From contig NZ_CP022203.1 in the NCBI RefSeq assembly GCF_002305895.1, forward strand, positions 3,760,501 to 3,824,500: a stretch of 64,000 nucleotides of DNA, in the 5' to 3' direction. Source of the stretch: Corallococcus macrosporus DSM 14697. GTDB lineage: Bacteria; Myxococcota; Myxococcia; Myxococcales; Myxococcaceae. Under the pieces are notes generated by a model, which worked only from the letters and a program-made list of their open reading frames with translations, searched no databases and was not told the origin of the DNA. Positions 37,784 through 51,486 of this stretch are shown one piece after another (positions within the stretch are counted from its first letter, which is position 1; each line of letters starts with the position of its first letter). Position numbers and translations under genes: made by a program.

Positions 37784-38062
37784 ATGCGCGTCGATATCTA
37801 CTCGAAACCCCATTGCTCTCTCTGTGACAAGGCGGCCGCCGTCGTGGAGTCCGTGCGCGCCCGCATCCCCTTCGAGCTGCGGATCATCTCCATCCTCGAG
37901 GACGCGGAGGCCTTCACCGCCTGGCGTTACGACATCCCCGTGGTCGTCATCGACGGCGTCCCCGCCTTCAAGCACCGCGTGGACGCCGCCGAGTTCGAGG
38001 CGCGGCTGCATGAGGTCAAAGGTGGCACAGCCATTGCTAAATCCGCTGCCCAGGATGGGTAG
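37784..38062 (+). CDS. small glutaredoxin-like protein (DUF836 type)
   Basis: 92 aa thioredoxin-fold protein with CSLC at residues 11-14 (KPHCSLCDKA) and a cis-Pro region (YDIPVVVIDGVPAF). The family is glutaredoxin-like and reduces or carries thiols; partners unknown. Its last 40 bases contain a sigma-54 promoter for the act operon. The start ATG 37784 lies 21 bases from the divergent DUF4388 start. Confidence 0.9.
   Translation: MRVDIYSKPHCSLCDKAAAVVESVRARIPFELRIISILEDAEAFTAWRYDIPVVVIDGVPAFKHRVDAAEFEARLHEVKGGTAIAKSAAQDG
38023..38038 (+). promoter_or_regulatory. sigma-54 promoter for the act operon
   Basis: TGGCAC-N5-TTGCT (38023-38038) matches the -24/-12 consensus at every invariant base with the correct spacing. 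It lies inside the 3' end of the glutaredoxin gene, about 145 bases upstream of the actA GTG. In M. xanthus the act operon is reported to be controlled by enhancer-binding proteins, which need this promoter type. Confidence 0.85.
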
Positions 38063-42321: not shown

Positions 42322-43131
42322 ATGGCCCCTGGCACCCCTGACTGGCTTCTGGAGCGAATCATCCTGGGCGAGCTGCCATCAGCGCCGCTCGCCGCCGCGC
42401 GCGCCCGGCTGGAGCGGGAGCCCGGTGGCGCCGCGCGGCTGGCGCGCTTGGAGGCGGACGCCCGCCGGACGCTGGAGCGCCACCCCCCTGCCGCCGTCGC
42501 CGCGGAGGTGGCCCGGCGCGACCACCGGGCCCGGGTCCTCGCGGAGGCGACGCGGCGCGCCGAGTCCCAGGGGTGGCACGGCCTGTCCCTCAGCGTGCCC
42601 GTGGCCGCCTCGCTGGCGCTGCTCTTCATGTCCGCGCCGGAGGAGCAGCCGGAGCCCTCGGCGTCGCCCGTGCCCCTGGTGGTGATGCTGGACACCGTGC
42701 GCATCAAGGGCCCTCCGCGCCTGCGCGTCCACCGGCAGGGCGCGGGGGAGCCGGAGCTCCTGGACGAGCAGGCCCGGGCCCGCCGCGGAGACGTCCTGCA
42801 GCTCAGCTACGTGTCGGGCGGGCGCCGCCATGGTGTCGTGGTGTCGGTGGATGGGCGCGGCGCGGTGACGCTGCACCACCCGGCGACGCTGGCCGGGAGC
42901 ACGGAGCTGGGGCCGGGCGACGCGGTGCCCCTGGCCCACGCCTATGAGCTCGACGACGCGCCGGACTTCGAGCGGTTCCTCTTCGTGACGTCCGACGGGC
43001 CGTTGGACGTCTCCACCGTCCTGGAAGCGGCCCGGGTGCTCGCCCGACAGCCCTCCGAAGCGCGCACCCGGTCCCTTCCGCTTCCGGATACCCTGGGCCA
43101 GACGTCCTTCACGTTGGAAAAGGTGCGGTGA
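42322..43131 (+). CDS. actD: ActD: single-pass membrane protein
   Basis: 269 aa. An N-terminal cytoplasmic part (about 1-85, ELPSAPLAAARARLE) resembles anti-sigma-type helical regions. One membrane helix follows near 92-110 (LSLSVPVAASLALLFM), then an extracytoplasmic beta-rich domain (RRGDVLQLSYVSGG, with hydrophobic strands). I chose ATG 42322; a GTG at 42241 would add 27 residues. The stop overlaps the actE ATG. No enzyme motif is seen; a signalling or anchoring partner of ActE is the simplest inference. Confidence 0.8.
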   Translation: MAPGTPDWLLERIILGELPSAPLAAARARLEREPGGAARLARLEADARRTLERHPPAAVAAEVARRDHRARVLAEATRRAESQGWHGLSLSVPVAASLALLFMSAPEEQPEPSASPVPLVVMLDTVRIKGPPRLRVHRQGAGEPELLDEQARARRGDVLQLSYVSGGRRHGVVVSVDGRGAVTLHHPATLAGSTELGPGDAVPLAHAYELDDAPDFERFLFVTSDGPLDVSTVLEAARVLARQPSEARTRSLPLPDTLGQTSFTLEKVR

Positions 43132-45368
43132 TGACGCGGTCCTTCTTGTTCCTGCTGCTGCTCGTGCCCGCGCTGGCCGCGGCGGCCCCCGCGTCCACTG
43201 CGCCGCCGCTGTCGGTGCGCCGCCTGGCGCTGCTGGTGGGCGTCAACGACGGCGGCGAGGGCCGCGCCCGGCTCCGCTACGCCGTCACGGACGCGCGCTC
43301 CTTCGGCGACGTGTTGGAGGAGCTGGGCGGGGTGCAGCCCCAGGACACGCTGCTGATGATGGAGGGCGACCGCGCGGCGTTCGAGGCCGCCCTGGCCCGC
43401 TTCAAGGCGATGCTGACGGCGGCCCGCCGGCAGGGCACGCGCATCGAGGCCCTCCTCTACTATTCGGGGCACTCCGACGAGCAGGGCTTGCTGCTCCAGA
43501 AGGACCGCTTCGGCTACCGCGAGCTGCGCAAGGCGCTGGAGTCGCTCCCGGCCGACGTGCGCATCGCCATCCTGGATTCGTGCGCGTCCGGCACGCTGGC
43601 GCGCCAGAAGGGCGGGGTGCGGCGGCCGGCCTTCATGGTGGACGCGTCCTCCGCGGTGCGGGGCCACGCCATCCTCACGTCGTCCTCCGAGGACGAGGTG
43701 TCCCAGGAGTCCGACCGCATCGGCGGCTCGTTCTTCACCCACAACCTGGTGTCCGGCCTGCGCGGCGCGGCGGACGTCTCCGGCGACGGCCGGGTGACGC
43801 TCCACGAGGCCTACCAGTTCGCCTTCCACGAGACGCTGGCCCGCACGGAGGAGACGCGCGCCGGGGCGCAGCACCCCGCGTATGACATTGAACTCGCGGG
43901 CACGGGCGACCTGGTGATGACGGACCTGCGCTCCACCGCCGCGGTGCTCGTGCTGGGTGACCTGGTGGACGGGCGGCTCTTTGTCCGGGATTCGCGGGGG
44001 CGGCTGGTGGTGGAGCTCAAGAAGTACGCCGGCCGCACCACCGAGCTGGGCTTGCAGAAGGGCCGCTACACGGTGATGCGCAAGGTGCTGGACCAGACGT
44101 CGCAGGCGGAGTTCGAGCTGGGCGACGGAGGCCGCACGGTGCTGGCCGCGTCCGCCTTCCGCGCGGTGCAGGGCGAGCTGACCGCCATGCGCGGTGGCGG
44201 GCCCCTGCCCACGGCGGAGTCGGCGAGCGCCGCCTCGGCGACGGGCGGCGGTCACCGGGCCCGCTTCGTGAACGTCGGGTTGTTCCCCGGCCTCCAGACG
44301 AACGACCTGCTGAACGGCGGCGCGCCGGTGGACAACAACCTCTCCCTGTCCATGGGCGTGTCCCGCATGGCCCGGCTGGACGGCGTGGCGGTGGCCCTGG
44401 GCGCGAACCTGGCCTCGGACCAGGTGGACGGGCTGCAGCTGGCCGTGGGCGCCAACGTGGTGCGGGGCGACCTGCTGGGCGCGCAGGTGGCCGTCGGAGG
44501 CAACTGGGCGCACGGGAAGGCGGAGGGCGTCCAGGCCGCGGTGGGGCTCAACGTGGCGCGAAGCAGCGGCAACCTGGGCCAGCTCGCGGTGGGGGCCAAC
44601 ATCTCCGGCACCTCGCTGGCCGGCGCCCAGCTCGCCGCGGGCGGCAACTGGACGGCGGGGAGTGTCGATGGCCTCCAGGTCGCGGCGGGGCTCAACCGCG
44701 TGAAGGACCGGCTTTCGGGCCTCCAGTTGGCCGCGGGCATGAACTGGGCCGCGGAGGCCCGGGGCGCGCAGGTGTCGCTCGTCAACGTGGGCGGCGACGT
44801 GAGGGGCGCGCAGGTGGGCCTCGTCAACGTGGCGGGGCGGATGCGCGGCCTGCAGCTCGGGCTCGTCAACGTGTCGCGGGAGATGGAGAGCGGCGTGCCG
44901 GTGGGGCTGGTGAGCCTCGTGCGCGACGGCCAGTTCCACGTCGAGGCCTTCGGCAACGACTTCAACTACGCCAACACCGCCCTGAAGATGGGCAGCCGCC
45001 ACTTCTACACCACGCTCGTGGTGGGCATGGGCACCGCGGAGGGCGCGCGCGGCCCCAGCCACTGGTCGCTGGGGTTGGGGCTCGGCGCGCACCTCCCCTT
45101 CACCGAGCGCTTCTTCCTGGACGTGGACGCGGTGTCGAACACGCTCTACGGCTGGAACATGAAGTTCGAGGGCAACCGCCTGGTGCACCAGCTCCGGCTG
45201 GTGGCCGGGTTCCAGGTGGCGCGCGACCTGGCCCTCATCGGCGGGCCCACGCTCAACGTGATGCACGACGTCAACGGCGAGCCCGTGTCGAACGTGAGCC
45301 GCCTCGCGCGCCCGGCGCCAGGGGACGTGCTCCTGTGGCCCGGTGTCCAGGTGGGCCTGCGCATCTGA
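43128..45368 (+). CDS. actE: ActE: secreted caspase-fold protease with surface repeats
   Basis: 746 aa. A signal peptide (about 1-22) precedes a peptidase C14-like domain with catalytic His115 (YYSGHSDEQG) and Cys152 (LDSCASG). The second half holds about nine imperfect 20-residue Gly/Asn-rich repeats (consensus like G-LQ-A-G-N) of the LA_2272-type surface repeat, followed by a beta-rich C-terminus that may form an outer-membrane barrel. ATGA overlap with actD indicates coupling. A periplasmic/outer-membrane protease acting in C-signal maturation is plausible but unproven. Confidence 0.85.
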   Translation: MMTRSFLFLLLLVPALAAAAPASTAPPLSVRRLALLVGVNDGGEGRARLRYAVTDARSFGDVLEELGGVQPQDTLLMMEGDRAAFEAALARFKAMLTAARRQGTRIEALLYYSGHSDEQGLLLQKDRFGYRELRKALESLPADVRIAILDSCASGTLARQKGGVRRPAFMVDASSAVRGHAILTSSSEDEVSQESDRIGGSFFTHNLVSGLRGAADVSGDGRVTLHEAYQFAFHETLARTEETRAGAQHPAYDIELAGTGDLVMTDLRSTAAVLVLGDLVDGRLFVRDSRGRLVVELKKYAGRTTELGLQKGRYTVMRKVLDQTSQAEFELGDGGRTVLAASAFRAVQGELTAMRGGGPLPTAESASAASATGGGHRARFVNVGLFPGLQTNDLLNGGAPVDNNLSLSMGVSRMARLDGVAVALGANLASDQVDGLQLAVGANVVRGDLLGAQVAVGGNWAHGKAEGVQAAVGLNVARSSGNLGQLAVGANISGTSLAGAQLAAGGNWTAGSVDGLQVAAGLNRVKDRLSGLQLAAGMNWAAEARGAQVSLVNVGGDVRGAQVGLVNVAGRMRGLQLGLVNVSREMESGVPVGLVSLVRDGQFHVEAFGNDFNYANTALKMGSRHFYTTLVVGMGTAEGARGPSHWSLGLGLGAHLPFTERFFLDVDAVSNTLYGWNMKFEGNRLVHQLRLVAGFQVARDLALIGGPTLNVMHDVNGEPVSNVSRLARPAPGDVLLWPGVQVGLRI
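44380..44913 (+). repeat. tandem surface repeats within actE
   Basis: About nine degenerate 60-base units encode alternating VDGLQLAVGAN / RGDLLGAQVAVGGN-like motifs, ending in GAQVGLVNVAG and GLQLGLVNVS forms. Degeneracy at the DNA level argues for old expansion. Confidence 0.7.
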
Positions 45369-46233: not shown

Positions 46234-47352
46234 ATGATCGTCATGCTCGAGCCGGACTCGCCTGAGTCCGTGGTGTCCGCCGTCCTCCAGGTTGCCTCCC
46301 AGTACAAGGGAGTGACGCCGCGGACGCACGTCATCGGGGGCTCCGAGTTGACGATTACGGAAATCTACCTGCTGGGTTCCACGGCGCAGGTGCCGGTGGA
46401 GCCCTTCGAGCAGATTCCCGGCGTGCGGCAGGTGGTGCGCGTGTCGCAGAAGTACCGCGTCATCGGCCGGCACAAGGGCCAGCGGACGTCCGCGGGCTTC
46501 GAGTACAACGGCGTCTCCTTCGACGAGCGCTCGGTGAACGTGTTCGCGGGCCTGTGCGCCGTGGACAACCGGGAGAACGTGGACACGATGATGGCGGCGC
46601 TGGCGCGGGTGGGCATCCGCACCACGCGCATGGGCGCCTACAAGCCCCGCACCAACCCCTACGAGTTCCAGGGCCTGGGCGCCGCCTGCCTGCCGTGGGT
46701 GTTCGAGTCGGCGGGCAAGCACGGCATCAAGGTCATCGCGATGGAGGTGACGCACCCGCGCCACATCGACGAGATTCGGGACGCGCTGGAGCGCTCCGGC
46801 AACGCCACGGGGGTGATGCTGCAGGTGGGCACGCGCAACGCGCAGAACTTCGAGCTGCTCAAGAGCATTGGCCAGCAGCGCGTCTTCCCGGTGCTCTTCA
46901 AGCGCGGCATGGGCATCACCCTGGAGGAGTCGCTCAACGCGTGCGAGTACGTGGCGAGCGAGGGCAACCCGAAGATTGTCTTCTGCCTGCGCGGCGTGAA
47001 GACGCACCTGGGCGACCCGCACCGCAACATGGTGGACTTCGCCCACGTTCCGGTGGTGCGCCGGCTCACCCGGCTGCCGGTGTGCGTGGACCCGTCGCAC
47101 GCCATTGGCCAGGCCGCGCCGCCGCCGGACGGGCTGCCGGACATCTTCCACGCCATTGGCCAGGGGCTCATCGCGGGCGCGTCCATGGTGCTGGTGGACT
47201 TCCACCCGCACCCGGAGGCCGCCCTGTGCGACGGCCCGCAGGCCCTGCGCATGGAGCAGCTCCCCGCGCTCCAGCGCTACGTCAGCCTGGTGCGCTCCGC
47301 CTATGAGGCGGCGGTGCAGCACGGCGACGGGCTCCAGGCCACCAACGCCTGA
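46234..47352 (+). CDS. DAHP synthase-family (type I beta) protein with altered active site
   Basis: 372 aa. An N-terminal ferredoxin-like regulatory domain (about 1-75) and a TIM barrel resemble 3-deoxy-7-phosphoheptulonate synthase: MGAYKPRT (133-140), GTRNAQNF, LFKRG and DPSH (286-289) are conserved. But the usual GPC is GLC (Cys108), CERG is CLRG (251-254), and the late metal-ligand Glu position is Asp322. It may still start the shikimate pathway, or be a divergent relative. Start ATG 46234, preceded by GGGAGAA. Convergent with the prephenate dehydratase gene 3 bases away. Confidence 0.83.
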   Translation: MIVMLEPDSPESVVSAVLQVASQYKGVTPRTHVIGGSELTITEIYLLGSTAQVPVEPFEQIPGVRQVVRVSQKYRVIGRHKGQRTSAGFEYNGVSFDERSVNVFAGLCAVDNRENVDTMMAALARVGIRTTRMGAYKPRTNPYEFQGLGAACLPWVFESAGKHGIKVIAMEVTHPRHIDEIRDALERSGNATGVMLQVGTRNAQNFELLKSIGQQRVFPVLFKRGMGITLEESLNACEYVASEGNPKIVFCLRGVKTHLGDPHRNMVDFAHVPVVRRLTRLPVCVDPSHAIGQAAPPPDGLPDIFHAIGQGLIAGASMVLVDFHPHPEAALCDGPQALRMEQLPALQRYVSLVRSAYEAAVQHGDGLQATNA

Positions 47353-47355
47353 GCC

Positions 47356-48177
47356 TCACGCCACGCCGTAGCTCCCGAGCACCCGCAGGGTGATGCAGGC
47401 GGCCTGGGCCGCGGCCACCGCCTCGCGCACCCGCGGGTCCTCCAGCGCGCCGTCCACGTCCAGGCACCACACGTACTCCCAGGCGCGGCGCTGCGGCCGG
47501 GACTCCAGCCGCGTCACGTCGAGGCCGCGCGAGGAGAAGGCGCTCAGCACCCGGTACAGCGCGCCCGGCCCGTTCTCCACGGTGAGGGCCAGCGCCGTCT
47601 TCCGCCGCGTCCACGCCCGCTCGGGCGCGGGCCCCAGGGCGAGGAAGCGCGTGAAGTTGTCCGGCGAGTCCTCCACGCCTTCCTCCAGCACCTCCAGCCC
47701 GTACAGCGCCGCGGACATCCGGCTGGCGATGGCGGCCGTGTGCGGGGGCCGCTCCTCCGCCACCTTCCGCGCGGCGATGGCGGTGTTCGTCTCCGGCAGG
47801 GGCATGATGCCCTTGCGGCGCAGGTAGCCCGCGCATTGCGCCAGCGCCTGCGGATGGGAGAGGGCGCCCTGGACGGCGTCCAGGGCCAGGCCCGGCGGGG
47901 CCAGCAGGCAGTGGCGGATGCGCAGCGACACCTCGCCCGTCACCGGCACATCGTGCTCCAGCAGCAGGTCCACCGTCTCCGCCACCGGGCCGCCCAGCGA
48001 GCTCTCCACGGGCACCACGCCGCCCTGCACGCGGCCCTCGGCCACGGACTCGAAGACGGCGCGGAAGGTGAGGCAGGGGACGGCCTCCACGGCGGGGCCA
48101 TGCAGCGCGCGCAGGGCCTCCTCTCCGTAGGCGCCAGGCTCGCCCTGGAAGGCGATGCGCCGCGGCGTCTCAGCCAT
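47356..48177 (-). CDS. prephenate dehydratase (no chorismate mutase domain)
   Basis: 273 aa. The PDT catalytic part runs IAFQGEPGAYGEEA to SPDNFTRFLALG, with the TRF motif. A C-terminal ACT domain has GPGALYRVLSAF and ESRP, the phenylalanine-binding elements. Converts prephenate to phenylpyruvate in phenylalanine synthesis. The ATG overlaps the upstream pheA stop by 8 bases, so the two paralogues are translationally coupled. It shares the ACT and PDT layout with its neighbour but lacks the mutase helices. Confidence 0.92.
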   Translation of the reverse strand: MAETPRRIAFQGEPGAYGEEALRALHGPAVEAVPCLTFRAVFESVAEGRVQGGVVPVESSLGGPVAETVDLLLEHDVPVTGEVSLRIRHCLLAPPGLALDAVQGALSHPQALAQCAGYLRRKGIMPLPETNTAIAARKVAEERPPHTAAIASRMSAALYGLEVLEEGVEDSPDNFTRFLALGPAPERAWTRRKTALALTVENGPGALYRVLSAFSSRGLDVTRLESRPQRRAWEYVWCLDVDGALEDPRVREAVAAAQAACITLRVLGSYGVA

Positions 48178-49309
48178 GCGGCGCCTCCGCGCGCGCGTAC
48201 GTGCCCAGCACGCGCAGCGACGAGGTGAGCGGCCGGATGTCCTCCAGCGCCGCCGTCACCGCCGCGGAGGCCGCGTGGCCCTCCACGTCCAGGTAGAAGC
48301 GGTACTGCCAGGGCTGCCCGGGGATGGGCCGCGACTCCAGCTTGCTCAGGTTCACCCCGCGTAGCGTGAGCCGCTGGAGCATCTCTCCCAGGGTGCCGGG
48401 CTTGTGCTCCAGCACCACCAGGAGGGACGTCTTGCACGGCACGCCGGGCGCCAGGGGCGTGGCCTCCCGGCCCACCTCCACGAAGCGGGTGTAGTCGAAG
48501 GCCGGCTGCAGGTCCCCCGCGAGCACCTCCAGGCCGAAGCGCTGCGCCGCCGTCTCGCTGGCGATGGCCGCCACCGACGCGTCGTTGCGCTCGCGGACCT
48601 TCTGCGCCGCGCCGCCGGTGTCCACGTCCGGCACCGCGCGCGCCCAGGGCACCTTCTCCCGGAGGAACGCCTCGCACTGCGCCAGCGCCTGCGGGTGCGA
48701 CAGCACCTCGCGCAGGCCCTCCAGCTTCGCGCCGGGCAGGCCCAGCAGCCGGTGGTCCACCTGGCTGACCAGCTCCGCGGTGATGACCACGCCGCCCTCG
48801 GCGAGCAAGTCGTAGGTCTCGTTCATGCTGCCCGCGGTGGTGTTTTCAATGGGCAGCAGCACCAGGTCCTGCTCGCCGCGGCGCAGCGCCTCCACCGCCT
48901 CCCGGGCGTGGTCGAAGCCGGACAGCAGCACGCCGCCGGCGCGGTCGCCATAGCGGCGCCGGGCGGCCAGGTGGCTGTAGGAGCCCTCCACGCCCGGGTA
49001 GGCCACGCGCAGCGGCGTGGTGTCCAAGCGCGTGACGAGCTCGTGCTGCCGCGCCACGGACATGTCGATGAAGAGGCGCCAGATGCGCTCCACCTCGTGC
49101 GGGTCCAGGCCGTGCTCCGCGGCGCGGGTGCGGATGCGGCGCAGCAGCAGATCCTCGCGGCGCTGGTCCCGGAAGGGCGCCGCGGCGGCCAGCTTCGCCC
49201 GGGCCACGTCGTCCGCCAGGGCCATGCGGCGGCGCAGGGCGTCGAGAATCTCCTCGTCGATGCGCTCGATGGAGGTGCGGATGCGGTCGAGGTCGGGGAG
49301 GGTGGTCAT
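48170..49309 (-). CDS. pheA: chorismate mutase-prephenate dehydratase (P-protein)
   Basis: 379 aa bifunctional enzyme. An AroQ-type chorismate mutase covers residues 1-85 (LDRIRTSIERIDEEILDAL...RREDLLLRRI), then the PDT domain (YPGVEGSYSHLAARR, PIENTTAGSMNETYDLL, DYTRFVEV) and an ACT domain (KPGTLGEMLQRL, ESRPIPGQ). Start ATG 49309 overlaps the GNAT stop as TGATG. It catalyses chorismate to prephenate to phenylpyruvate, likely under Phe feedback. Confidence 0.95.
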   Translation of the reverse strand: MTTLPDLDRIRTSIERIDEEILDALRRRMALADDVARAKLAAAAPFRDQRREDLLLRRIRTRAAEHGLDPHEVERIWRLFIDMSVARQHELVTRLDTTPLRVAYPGVEGSYSHLAARRRYGDRAGGVLLSGFDHAREAVEALRRGEQDLVLLPIENTTAGSMNETYDLLAEGGVVITAELVSQVDHRLLGLPGAKLEGLREVLSHPQALAQCEAFLREKVPWARAVPDVDTGGAAQKVRERNDASVAAIASETAAQRFGLEVLAGDLQPAFDYTRFVEVGREATPLAPGVPCKTSLLVVLEHKPGTLGEMLQRLTLRGVNLSKLESRPIPGQPWQYRFYLDVEGHAASAAVTAALEDIRPLTSSLRVLGTYARAEAPHG

Positions 49310-49764
49310 CAGGAGCGTCCGAGGTTGCGCCACATGAGGTGGTGCGGGCCGATACCGGGCAGGTCGAAGGGCTCGCCCCGCTGGGAGAACCCCTGCGCGC
49401 GGTAGAAGCCGGAGGCGGTGAGCCGCGCGTTGCACCACACCTGGGAACCGCCCTGCCGCGCCGCATGCTCCAGGCAGGCCTCCAGGAGAGCGGCCCCATG
49501 GCCGTGCCCGCGCAGGGTGGCGTCCACCGCCATGCCGCGCAGCCGCCAGGCGCTGGTGTCACGCAGCGCGTCCGGTGGGGGCTCCCGGTACAGGGAGGCC
49601 ACGCCCACCAGGCGGCCCGCCGTGTAGCGGCCCAGGTGGAGCGTGTCCGCGTCCTCATCCCCGGGGTAGACGGCCAGCTCCGGGGGCTGGTTGGGGCGAA
49701 GGACGGCGCGGCGGAGGCCGCGCGTCTCCTGCGCCGGAATCCTGCGGATGTCAGTGGCACTCAC
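49309..49764 (-). CDS. GNAT-family N-acetyltransferase
   Basis: 151 aa. The GNAT core is clear: ASLYREP strand, then WRLRGMAVDATLRGHGHGAALLEACL, with the acetyl-CoA-binding RGHGHG loop, then ASGFYRAQGFS. Substrate unknown. First gene of a three-gene set with pheA (stop overlaps the pheA ATG) and the second PDT gene. Confidence 0.92.
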   Translation of the reverse strand: MSATDIRRIPAQETRGLRRAVLRPNQPPELAVYPGDEDADTLHLGRYTAGRLVGVASLYREPPPDALRDTSAWRLRGMAVDATLRGHGHGAALLEACLEHAARQGGSQVWCNARLTASGFYRAQGFSQRGEPFDLPGIGPHHLMWRNLGRS

Positions 49765-50341: not shown

Positions 50342-50539
50342 CTACGCCTGTTTCGCGACGCTGGTGGCCGCCGTCGTCGGCGCCTTGCCGGTGAGCAAGG
50401 CGCTGCTCGCGTACAGCGCCAGCCCCACCACGGCCACCACCGCGGCCTCCATCTGGGTCGCGAAGGCCACGCCCATCAGGGTCATGGCTCCAGTGCCCAT
50501 CGCGAACGACGCCGCCACCGCCCCTGCCGCCTTCCTCAT
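50342..50539 (-). CDS. small hydrophobic membrane protein
   Basis: 65 aa. Two hydrophobic helices (AAGAVAASFAMGTGAMTLMGVAFA and AAVVAVVGLALYASSALL) suggest an inner-membrane hairpin. ATG 50539 is chosen; an upstream in-frame ATG at 50572 would add 11 polar residues. No family recognised. Confidence 0.55.
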   Translation of the reverse strand: MRKAAGAVAASFAMGTGAMTLMGVAFATQMEAAVVAVVGLALYASSALLTGKAPTTAATSVAKQA

Positions 50540-50732
50540 CCGACCCTCCCCCGTTTTCGCGAGCTCATTCACGCGTTGTGGACTGCCTTGCCTCGCGCGG
50601 ACTTCAATCCAAGACGCGTGCCAGCCTCTTTGCCCCTGAAATGGGAAGTGAGGGGGGCCGCGGAGGGAAAAGTCGTTCCCAGATCAGCGCACTGTCTGAA
50701 GAAAGCACCGGATGCGACGCGGGTACGATGCC

Positions 50733-50769
50733 GGAAAAATTTCCTGAACCCCATGGGGTCTCCCGGGAG
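50733..50769. promoter_or_regulatory. three adjacent palindromes upstream of the exo promoter
   Basis: GGAAAAATTTCC (50733-50744), ACCCCATGGGGT (50748-50759) and CTCCCGGGAG (50760-50769) lie 51-87 bases upstream of the sigma-54 -24 element. The latter two are perfect palindromes. They are good candidates for enhancer-binding protein sites. The surrounding 50540-50913 stretch holds no gene. Confidence 0.5.
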
Positions 50770-50819
50770 GGCACTTCGTAACCCACTGCGATCCATGGGC
50801 TTTCCCTCCCTCCAGTACG

Positions 50820-50835
50820 TGGCACACGCGCTGCT
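50820..50835 (+). promoter_or_regulatory. sigma-54 promoter of the exoA-I operon
   Basis: TGGCAC-N5-CTGCT (50820-50835) matches the -24/-12 consensus with correct spacing, differing only at the first T of TTGC. The predicted transcript start is about 67 bases upstream of the exoA ATG. The enhancer-binding protein Nla6 has been linked to sporulation genes of this kind in M. xanthus. Confidence 0.8.
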
Positions 50836-50913
50836 AAGGCAACGGCGCCGGAAGCAACGTTCGGCCGCGGTACGGCCGGGAGCGCGACACACGCTTTTGA
50901 GGGAGAGCTGACG

Positions 50914-51486
50914 ATGGGCAAGACGAGCGCGGGGTTCTGGACGGTGTTGGGCGTGATGCTCCTGGGGGGCTGCGCGCACCAGCCGCAGGTGAAGGTGGAC
51001 AACACGGAGCAGCCCTACCGGATTGGCCGCGAGGACGTGCTGGACATCGCGGTGTGGCGTGACGCGGAGCTGTCCCGGACGCTGCCGGTTCGTCCGGATG
51101 GCTACATCTCCATGCCCATGGTGGGCGAGGTCCACGCGGCGGGCAAGACGCCCACGGAGCTGGCTGACTCGCTGAAGCAGGCCTTCCAGCCGTACGTGCA
51201 GGAGCCGCGCGTGACGGTGATTGTGCGCGAGGTGAACAGCAGCCGCGTGTTCGTCACCGGCGAGGTGGCCCACCCGGGCGCCTATCCGCTGCGCGGCCGC
51301 GTGTCGCTGTTGCAGGCCATTGCGCTGGCGGGCGGCTTCACGGACTTCGCCAACTCGGATGGCATCGTCGTCATCCGCACCGACAGCAAGGGCGGCCAGA
51401 TTCCGGTGCGCTACAGCGACCTCATCTCTCCGGATGGCGGGCAAGAGGTCATCCTCCGGCCGGGTGACACCGTCGTCGTTCCGTGA
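50914..51486 (+). CDS. exoA: ExoA: Wza-like polysaccharide export lipoprotein
   Basis: 190 aa. A lipoprotein signal (VLGVMLLGGC, lipobox Cys at about residue 20) leads to a polysaccharide-export domain (YRIGREDVLDIAVWRDAELSRT...PVRPDGYISMPMVGEV) and an SLBB-type domain (VFVTGEVAHPGAYPL). Shorter than Wza, lacking the C-terminal pore helix. First gene of exoA-I, required for spore-coat polysaccharide export in M. xanthus (ExoA is also known as FdgA). Confidence 0.93.
   Translation: MGKTSAGFWTVLGVMLLGGCAHQPQVKVDNTEQPYRIGREDVLDIAVWRDAELSRTLPVRPDGYISMPMVGEVHAAGKTPTELADSLKQAFQPYVQEPRVTVIVREVNSSRVFVTGEVAHPGAYPLRGRVSLLQAIALAGGFTDFANSDGIVVIRTDSKGGQIPVRYSDLISPDGGQEVILRPGDTVVVP

Follow-up and report, generated by a model that had tools for sequence, protein, structure and literature searches.

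What controls transcription of the exo operon of Myxococcus, and which bases ahead of the operon carry that control? The operon is required for resistant spores. Reports name several regulators that act on it, but no agreed map of their sites exists. We approached this question in a window of 64,000 nucleotides (the whole stretch of DNA that was analysed) from a Myxococcus genome of 8.97 Mb. The first gene of the operon, exoA (fdgA; 50914-51486, + strand), encodes a polysaccharide export lipoprotein with Poly_export and SLBB domains. Its product is 97% identical to ExoA from a genome labelled M. xanthus and is 190 aa long, as is M. xanthus ExoA (PMC9601211). A gap of 374 bp separates exoA from a small gene that is read in the opposite direction. 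We hypothesize that this gap is, on balance, probably a bidirectional sigma54 control region, in which an enhancer-binding protein acts at two dyads, U2 and U1, and a second regulator acts at a further element, U3.

The evidence is largely comparative. The alignment comprises 57 regions upstream of exoA, of which 37 came from first searches and 20 from further genera of the family; parsimony changes per column were counted on an exoA coding-sequence tree of 37 genomes. By this measure the exo promoter has 0.62 changes per column and the gaps between conserved elements 4.3-6.5. Four deeper relatives (L107-L110), with ExoA about 60-73% identical, extend the comparison.

The exo promoter

A sigma54-type promoter of the -24/-12 kind, TGGCACACGCGCTGCT, lies at 50820-50835 on the + strand, with one mismatch to TGGCAC-N5-TTGCW and the exoA ATG (50914) 78 bp downstream. 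It carries GG at -24 and GC at -12 with 10 nt between them, near the published consensus TGGCACG-N4-TTGC (PMC9765219), and the exo transcription start is predicted at about 50846, about 12 bp past 50834. Three sites in the 64-kb window match the sigma54 consensus with at most one mismatch, where 1.6 are expected. Two of these, divergently oriented, flank the exoA intergenic region; the third, upstream of actA/actB, is a perfect consensus, TGGCACAGCCATTGCT (38023-38038, + strand), which matches the published actB promoter TGGCACA-N4-TTGCT exactly (PMC9765219). We accept the exo element as real not because of its match score but because its core, TGGCAC-N6-TGCT, is invariant in all 57 orthologous upstream regions, drawn from eight genera. 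It is also retained in the four deeper genomes. The proposal of an earlier note on this DNA, that a sigma54 promoter stands ahead of exoA, is thus borne out: the exo start signal is real and ancient and, as judged from its sequence, of the sigma54 type throughout the family.

A divergent gene and the promoter-like site ahead of it

The neighbour of exoA (50342-50539, - strand) encodes a hydrophobic protein of 65 aa that matched no family in Pfam or NCBIfam and is probably a two-helix membrane protein. It is conserved at the codon level: over its first 50 codons it differs from the gene of a close species by 13 codon changes, all synonymous. Of the 64 genomes of the family that gave a strong match to exoA, 63 contain the gene, and it adjoins exoA in nearly all of them, the few exceptions being fragmented assemblies; it is next to exoA in the four deeper genomes too. 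A gene count starting at actB suggests that it corresponds to MXAN_3224, a name for which a literature search found nothing, and as far as the literature could be searched this conserved neighbour has apparently never been tested. One close genome carries a second copy elsewhere, 58% identical at the protein level (G023:C329:51319-51510).

Facing away from the exo promoter is the divergent sigma54-like site TGGCACGCGTCTTGGA, which follows a GGCA-N6-TTG pattern (50608-50623, - strand, read from 50623 to 50608) and takes the form GGCACGCGnnTTGA in relatives. In the form GGCACGCGnnTTG it was found in all 54 genomes whose available sequence was long enough, at a distance of 195-220 bp from the exo TGG. 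The invariance of GGCA and TTG is not itself evidence, because the search pattern demanded both. Support comes instead from the near-constant place of the site, from further conserved bases in columns that the pattern left unconstrained, and from its distance of about 80 bp to the conserved start codon of the 65-aa gene. The site matches the sigma54 consensus except at the C of the -12 element, and so lacks the strict GG-N10-GC arrangement. We term it sigma54-like only, because that C is replaced by A, G or T in all 54 genomes (A in 40, G in 9, T in 5).

This missing C is the main reason to consider an alternative in which the exo half of the region works as we propose but the divergent element is bound by some other factor, with independent expression of the small gene. 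In none of the 54 genomes does C follow TTG, while the exo promoter always reads TGCT. However, the spacing from GG to TTG and the TGGCACG half fit the sigma54 consensus, the element stands at a promoter-like distance from a conserved start codon, and no match to a sigma70-type promoter was found in the control region between the two genes. Moreover, the characterised nla6 promoter, TGGTGCG-N4-GTGTT, is likewise without the GC (PMC9765219). We therefore regard this independent arrangement as the strongest of the alternatives, yet still somewhat unlikely, and retain the bidirectional reading.

Conserved blocks between the promoters

All three conserved blocks, U1, U2 and U3, lie between the two -24 elements. 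They are therefore outside both predicted transcripts and would act as DNA. An RNA element was considered and rejected, since the blocks have this position and the control region gave no match in Rfam.

U2 is a dyad, CCGGAAAAATTTCCTG (50731-50746), that reads CCGGAAWWWTTTCCCGG across the alignment. When one mismatch is allowed, it fits GGAA-N(3-5)-TTCC in 57 of 57 genomes, as against 0 and 1 of 57 for control stretches from the same region, and has 0.9-1.25 changes per column (0.92 in its core). Its distance to the exo promoter is nearly fixed, and a U2-like dyad is still recognisable in the deeper relatives. Measured from its centre, U2 is about 107 bp ahead of the predicted start of exo, within the range of roughly 80-150 bp used here for enhancer positions.

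The second dyad, U1 (GGGAAAAGTCGTTCCC, 50665-50680; GGGnAAAnnnnTTCC across the alignment), is nearer the divergent promoter than U2 is. In 51 of 56 genomes it fits GGAA-N(5-7)-TTCC, again with one mismatch allowed, and because both blocks fit a GGAA/TTCC dyad pattern they appear to be two copies of one kind of site. U1 has 2.5 changes per column and stands 67 bp from U2 in 51 of 57 genomes, both figures having been computed on 50664-50679, one base to the left, which does not affect the outcome. In one genome the two dyads stand 11 bp further apart, roughly one helical turn.

U3 is the promoter-proximal element CGTAACCCACTGCGATCCATGGGCTTTCCCTC (50777-50808, + strand), recognised by its conservation (1.34 changes per column) and its fixed spacing. 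Its family form, CGTAACCCAYnnnGATCCAnGGnTTTCCC, stands just upstream of the exo promoter: the distance from base 50781 to the promoter TGG is 39 bp in 52 of 57 genomes, and the spacing between U2 and U3 is 50 or 52 in 55 of 57. In a genome-wide profile scan U3 was unique to exo, scoring 42.5 bits with the next best match at 12.6; the U2 profile gave 17.3 bits at its own site and 12.3 at the next best. Profile and pattern scans of the genome for a regulon yielded no convincing U3-like or U2-like site elsewhere, the best alternative matches lying in or beside genes of unrelated context. Because neither element has a good second copy in the genome, we consider control of exo to be locus-specific. 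U3 fades in the deeper relatives. In two of them, L109 and L110 (G097 and G098), the exo promoter is retained, U2 is weak and U3 is absent.

More than one regulator of exo is probable, because at least two unrelated types of conserved element, the U1/U2 dyads and U3, stand upstream of it. The earlier note had also suggested several regulators, on the ground that its three palindromes differ from one another in sequence; the conclusion survives in this probable form, and those differences are no evidence for it.

Which proteins could act at these sites?

Nla6 reportedly binds exo, in work by Giglio from 2015, and FruA is said, in work by Saha and Kroos from 2024, to control exo negatively early on. 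The target of Nla6 is a direct repeat of C(C/A)ACGNNGNC. The region holds one exact match to the half-site, at 50840-50849, which is clade-specific; allowing up to two mismatches, Nla6-type matches number 21 against 20 expected. The site of Nla28 consists of 8-bp direct repeats, CT[C/G]CG[C/G]AG (PMC9765219), of which the exo region has chance-level matches only. A report places FruA binding ahead of the exo promoter (Ueki and Inouye 2005, as cited in PMC4320627), and the FruA consensus is GGGYRN4-6YGGG (PMC4320627). Allowing one mismatch, this consensus has six matches where 3.4 are expected; the near-matches at 50710-50735 are conserved within the xanthus clade. U3 was considered as a FruA site and rejected, as the fit is poor and inconsistent between species. 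The MrpC site TGTYN8RAC has no exact match in the exo region, and its matches with one mismatch number 2 against 1.8 expected, in agreement with the report that MrpC2 does not bind exo from -100 to +1 (PMC4320627). Because the known consensus sites occur near chance level, we assign U1-U3 to none of Nla6, Nla28, FruA or MrpC. Published work is nevertheless in line with several inputs to exo: in glycerol-induced sporulation its genes go up early, alongside nla6 and rpoN (PMC2875238), and FruA reportedly contacts DNA upstream of it.

The kind of protein that would bind the dyads also deserves caution. Nla6 uses direct repeats. The enhancer sites of Nla28 are direct repeats as well, not GGAA/TTCC dyads (PMC9765219). 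Because the enhancer-binding proteins studied in Myxococcus bind direct repeats, U1 and U2 could bind a protein of another kind or be a DNA bend. If they are A/T-rich bends or architectural elements, IHF-like or intrinsic, the activator would act elsewhere, for instance at U3 or at the CAACG repeat at 50840-50864. In keeping with this, the centre of U2 varies between genomes (AAAAATTT, TAATTCT or TTTTTT) and is A/T-rich throughout, and the exact Nla6 half-site falls within that repeat. However, the GGAA and TTCC flanks are kept, with no more than one mismatch, in every genome of the alignment, and the Nla6-type matches are at chance, the downstream one being confined to a clade. We think a purely architectural role rather unlikely and favour an enhancer-binding protein at the dyads.

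One candidate for that protein is encoded close by. ActB, whose gene lies about 10 kb away, might activate exo through U2, and actB and exoA are 5-60 kb apart in 14 genomes, deep relatives included. However, this proximity may be plain synteny, and one genome (G097) has exo but gave no match to ActB at the threshold used. Timing also argues against ActB: in glycerol-induced sporulation actB peaks after fdgA, as a class II rather than a class I gene (PMC2875238). Activation by ActB is accordingly improbable, and we leave the enhancer-binding protein of our model unnamed.

Other genes stand in the same neighbourhood. A few kb past actB, the protein encoded at 43128-45368 (+ strand) is 746 aa long and carries a Peptidase_C14 domain of the caspase type. 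Two adjoining, overlapping prephenate dehydratase genes occupy 47356-49438 (- strand), the second fused to chorismate mutase, and a DAHP synthase gene (46234-47352) lies beside them.

The perfect palindromes

The earlier note had centred on three back-to-back palindromes, two of them perfect, 51-87 bp upstream of the -24 element, and the sequence matches that description. The first, GGAAAAATTTCC (50733-50744), pairs 5+5 bases around 2 and lies inside U2. The second, CCCCATGGGG (50749-50758), is perfect and extends to 12 bp with its flanks; the third, CTCCCGGGAG (50760-50769), is also perfect. By themselves palindromes prove little, because their counts are near chance: the window holds 129 perfect 10-bp palindromes, with 133 expected, so they are not enriched. 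The tandem pair alone is likewise weak evidence, since pairs of such palindromes at most 25 bp apart occur in 9 places in the 64 kb, against an expected 4.4 +/- 2.3. The real test is comparison across species. Across the alignment CCCCATGGGG is perfect in 7 of 57 genomes and CTCCCGGGAG in 2 of 57, all of them in the xanthus clade, and the two change at 4.1 and 5.2 per column, compared with 4.3-4.6 in the adjoining gaps and 0.9 in the imperfect palindrome. We also considered turnover, in which new palindromes replace the perfect pair in relatives, and rejected it: they are fewer than chance predicts, with one 8-bp palindrome seen in the same gap outside the xanthus clade and 5.9 expected.

The three sites thus shrink to one, because the two perfect palindromes evolve like spacer. 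They are most likely evolutionary noise without a role, and the idea that they are enhancer sites is not supported; what stands is the imperfect palindrome, which as part of U2 resembles an enhancer site and has the usual distance for one. That all three palindromes serve different enhancer-binding proteins, as first proposed, is very improbable, for although the palindromes are there, two of them perfect and the second kept within the xanthus clade, the perfect pair turns over as if neutral and is one of nine such pairs in the window. A separate observation is that CCATGGGGTCTCCC (50751-50764), comprising the second palindrome and flank, resembles part of U3, CCATGGGCTTTCCC (50793-50806), 42 bp away, and is possibly a clade-specific duplicate of it.

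Proposed mechanism

We infer three things: proteins bind the conserved blocks, U1 and U2 serve an enhancer-binding protein, and both promoters share these two dyads. In such a scheme sigma54 RNA polymerase would occupy TGGCAC-N6-TGCT at exo and probably also the weaker, non-canonical TGGCACGCGnnTTG[A/G/T], in the opposite direction. An enhancer-binding protein on the GGAA-Nx-TTCC dyads U2 and U1 would loop to the polymerase and open the exo promoter, and the same protein would probably act on the divergent gene as well. A second protein at the exo-specific U3 would tune exo, positively or negatively. U3 is too near the promoter for a classical enhancer, which counts against the model.

More tentatively, we can imagine that the region is an ancient sigma54 switch working in both directions, by which the spore-coat exporter and the 65-aa membrane protein are expressed together, by way of the conserved non-canonical divergent promoter and a GGAA-Nx-TTCC enhancer-binding protein distinct from Nla6 and Nla28, the small protein being an unrecognised part of spore-coat export. 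We consider this fuller version possible, and a good deal less secure than the bidirectional control region itself. For experiments, the bases worth mutating are those of U1, U2 and U3, and the two perfect palindromes can be ignored.

Comparison with known systems

The closest known system is the M. xanthus exo promoter (exoA-I, fdgA), which has the same operon, the same gene start, and inputs from sigma54 with enhancer-binding proteins and from FruA. The searchable literature appears to contain no description of the U1/U2/U3 arrangement, of the divergent gene or of the promoter-like site ahead of that gene, and overlap with the primary exo papers is possible. Of these features the earlier note had none of U1, U3, the divergent gene or its promoter-like site. 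The M. xanthus actB, nla6 and nla28 promoters have sigma54 core elements in common with exo, but they use Nla28 direct repeats (PMC9765219), for which the exo region offers nothing above chance.

In overall layout the region resembles the orp operons of Desulfovibrio vulgaris (DVU2106 with IHF), where two divergent sigma54 promoters are served by one enhancer-binding protein at palindromic sites and a further DNA-binding co-regulator acts between the sites and the promoter (PMC3897727), an arrangement that we liken to that of U3. The exo region differs in its genes and site sequences, one of its promoters is non-canonical, and it is known here from sequence alone. Set against an orp-like definition, it has divergent conserved sites with conserved dyads between them. 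We class it as a probable case of this known divergent sigma54 kind, because its divergent promoter departs from the strict definition and the sharing of sites is predicted.
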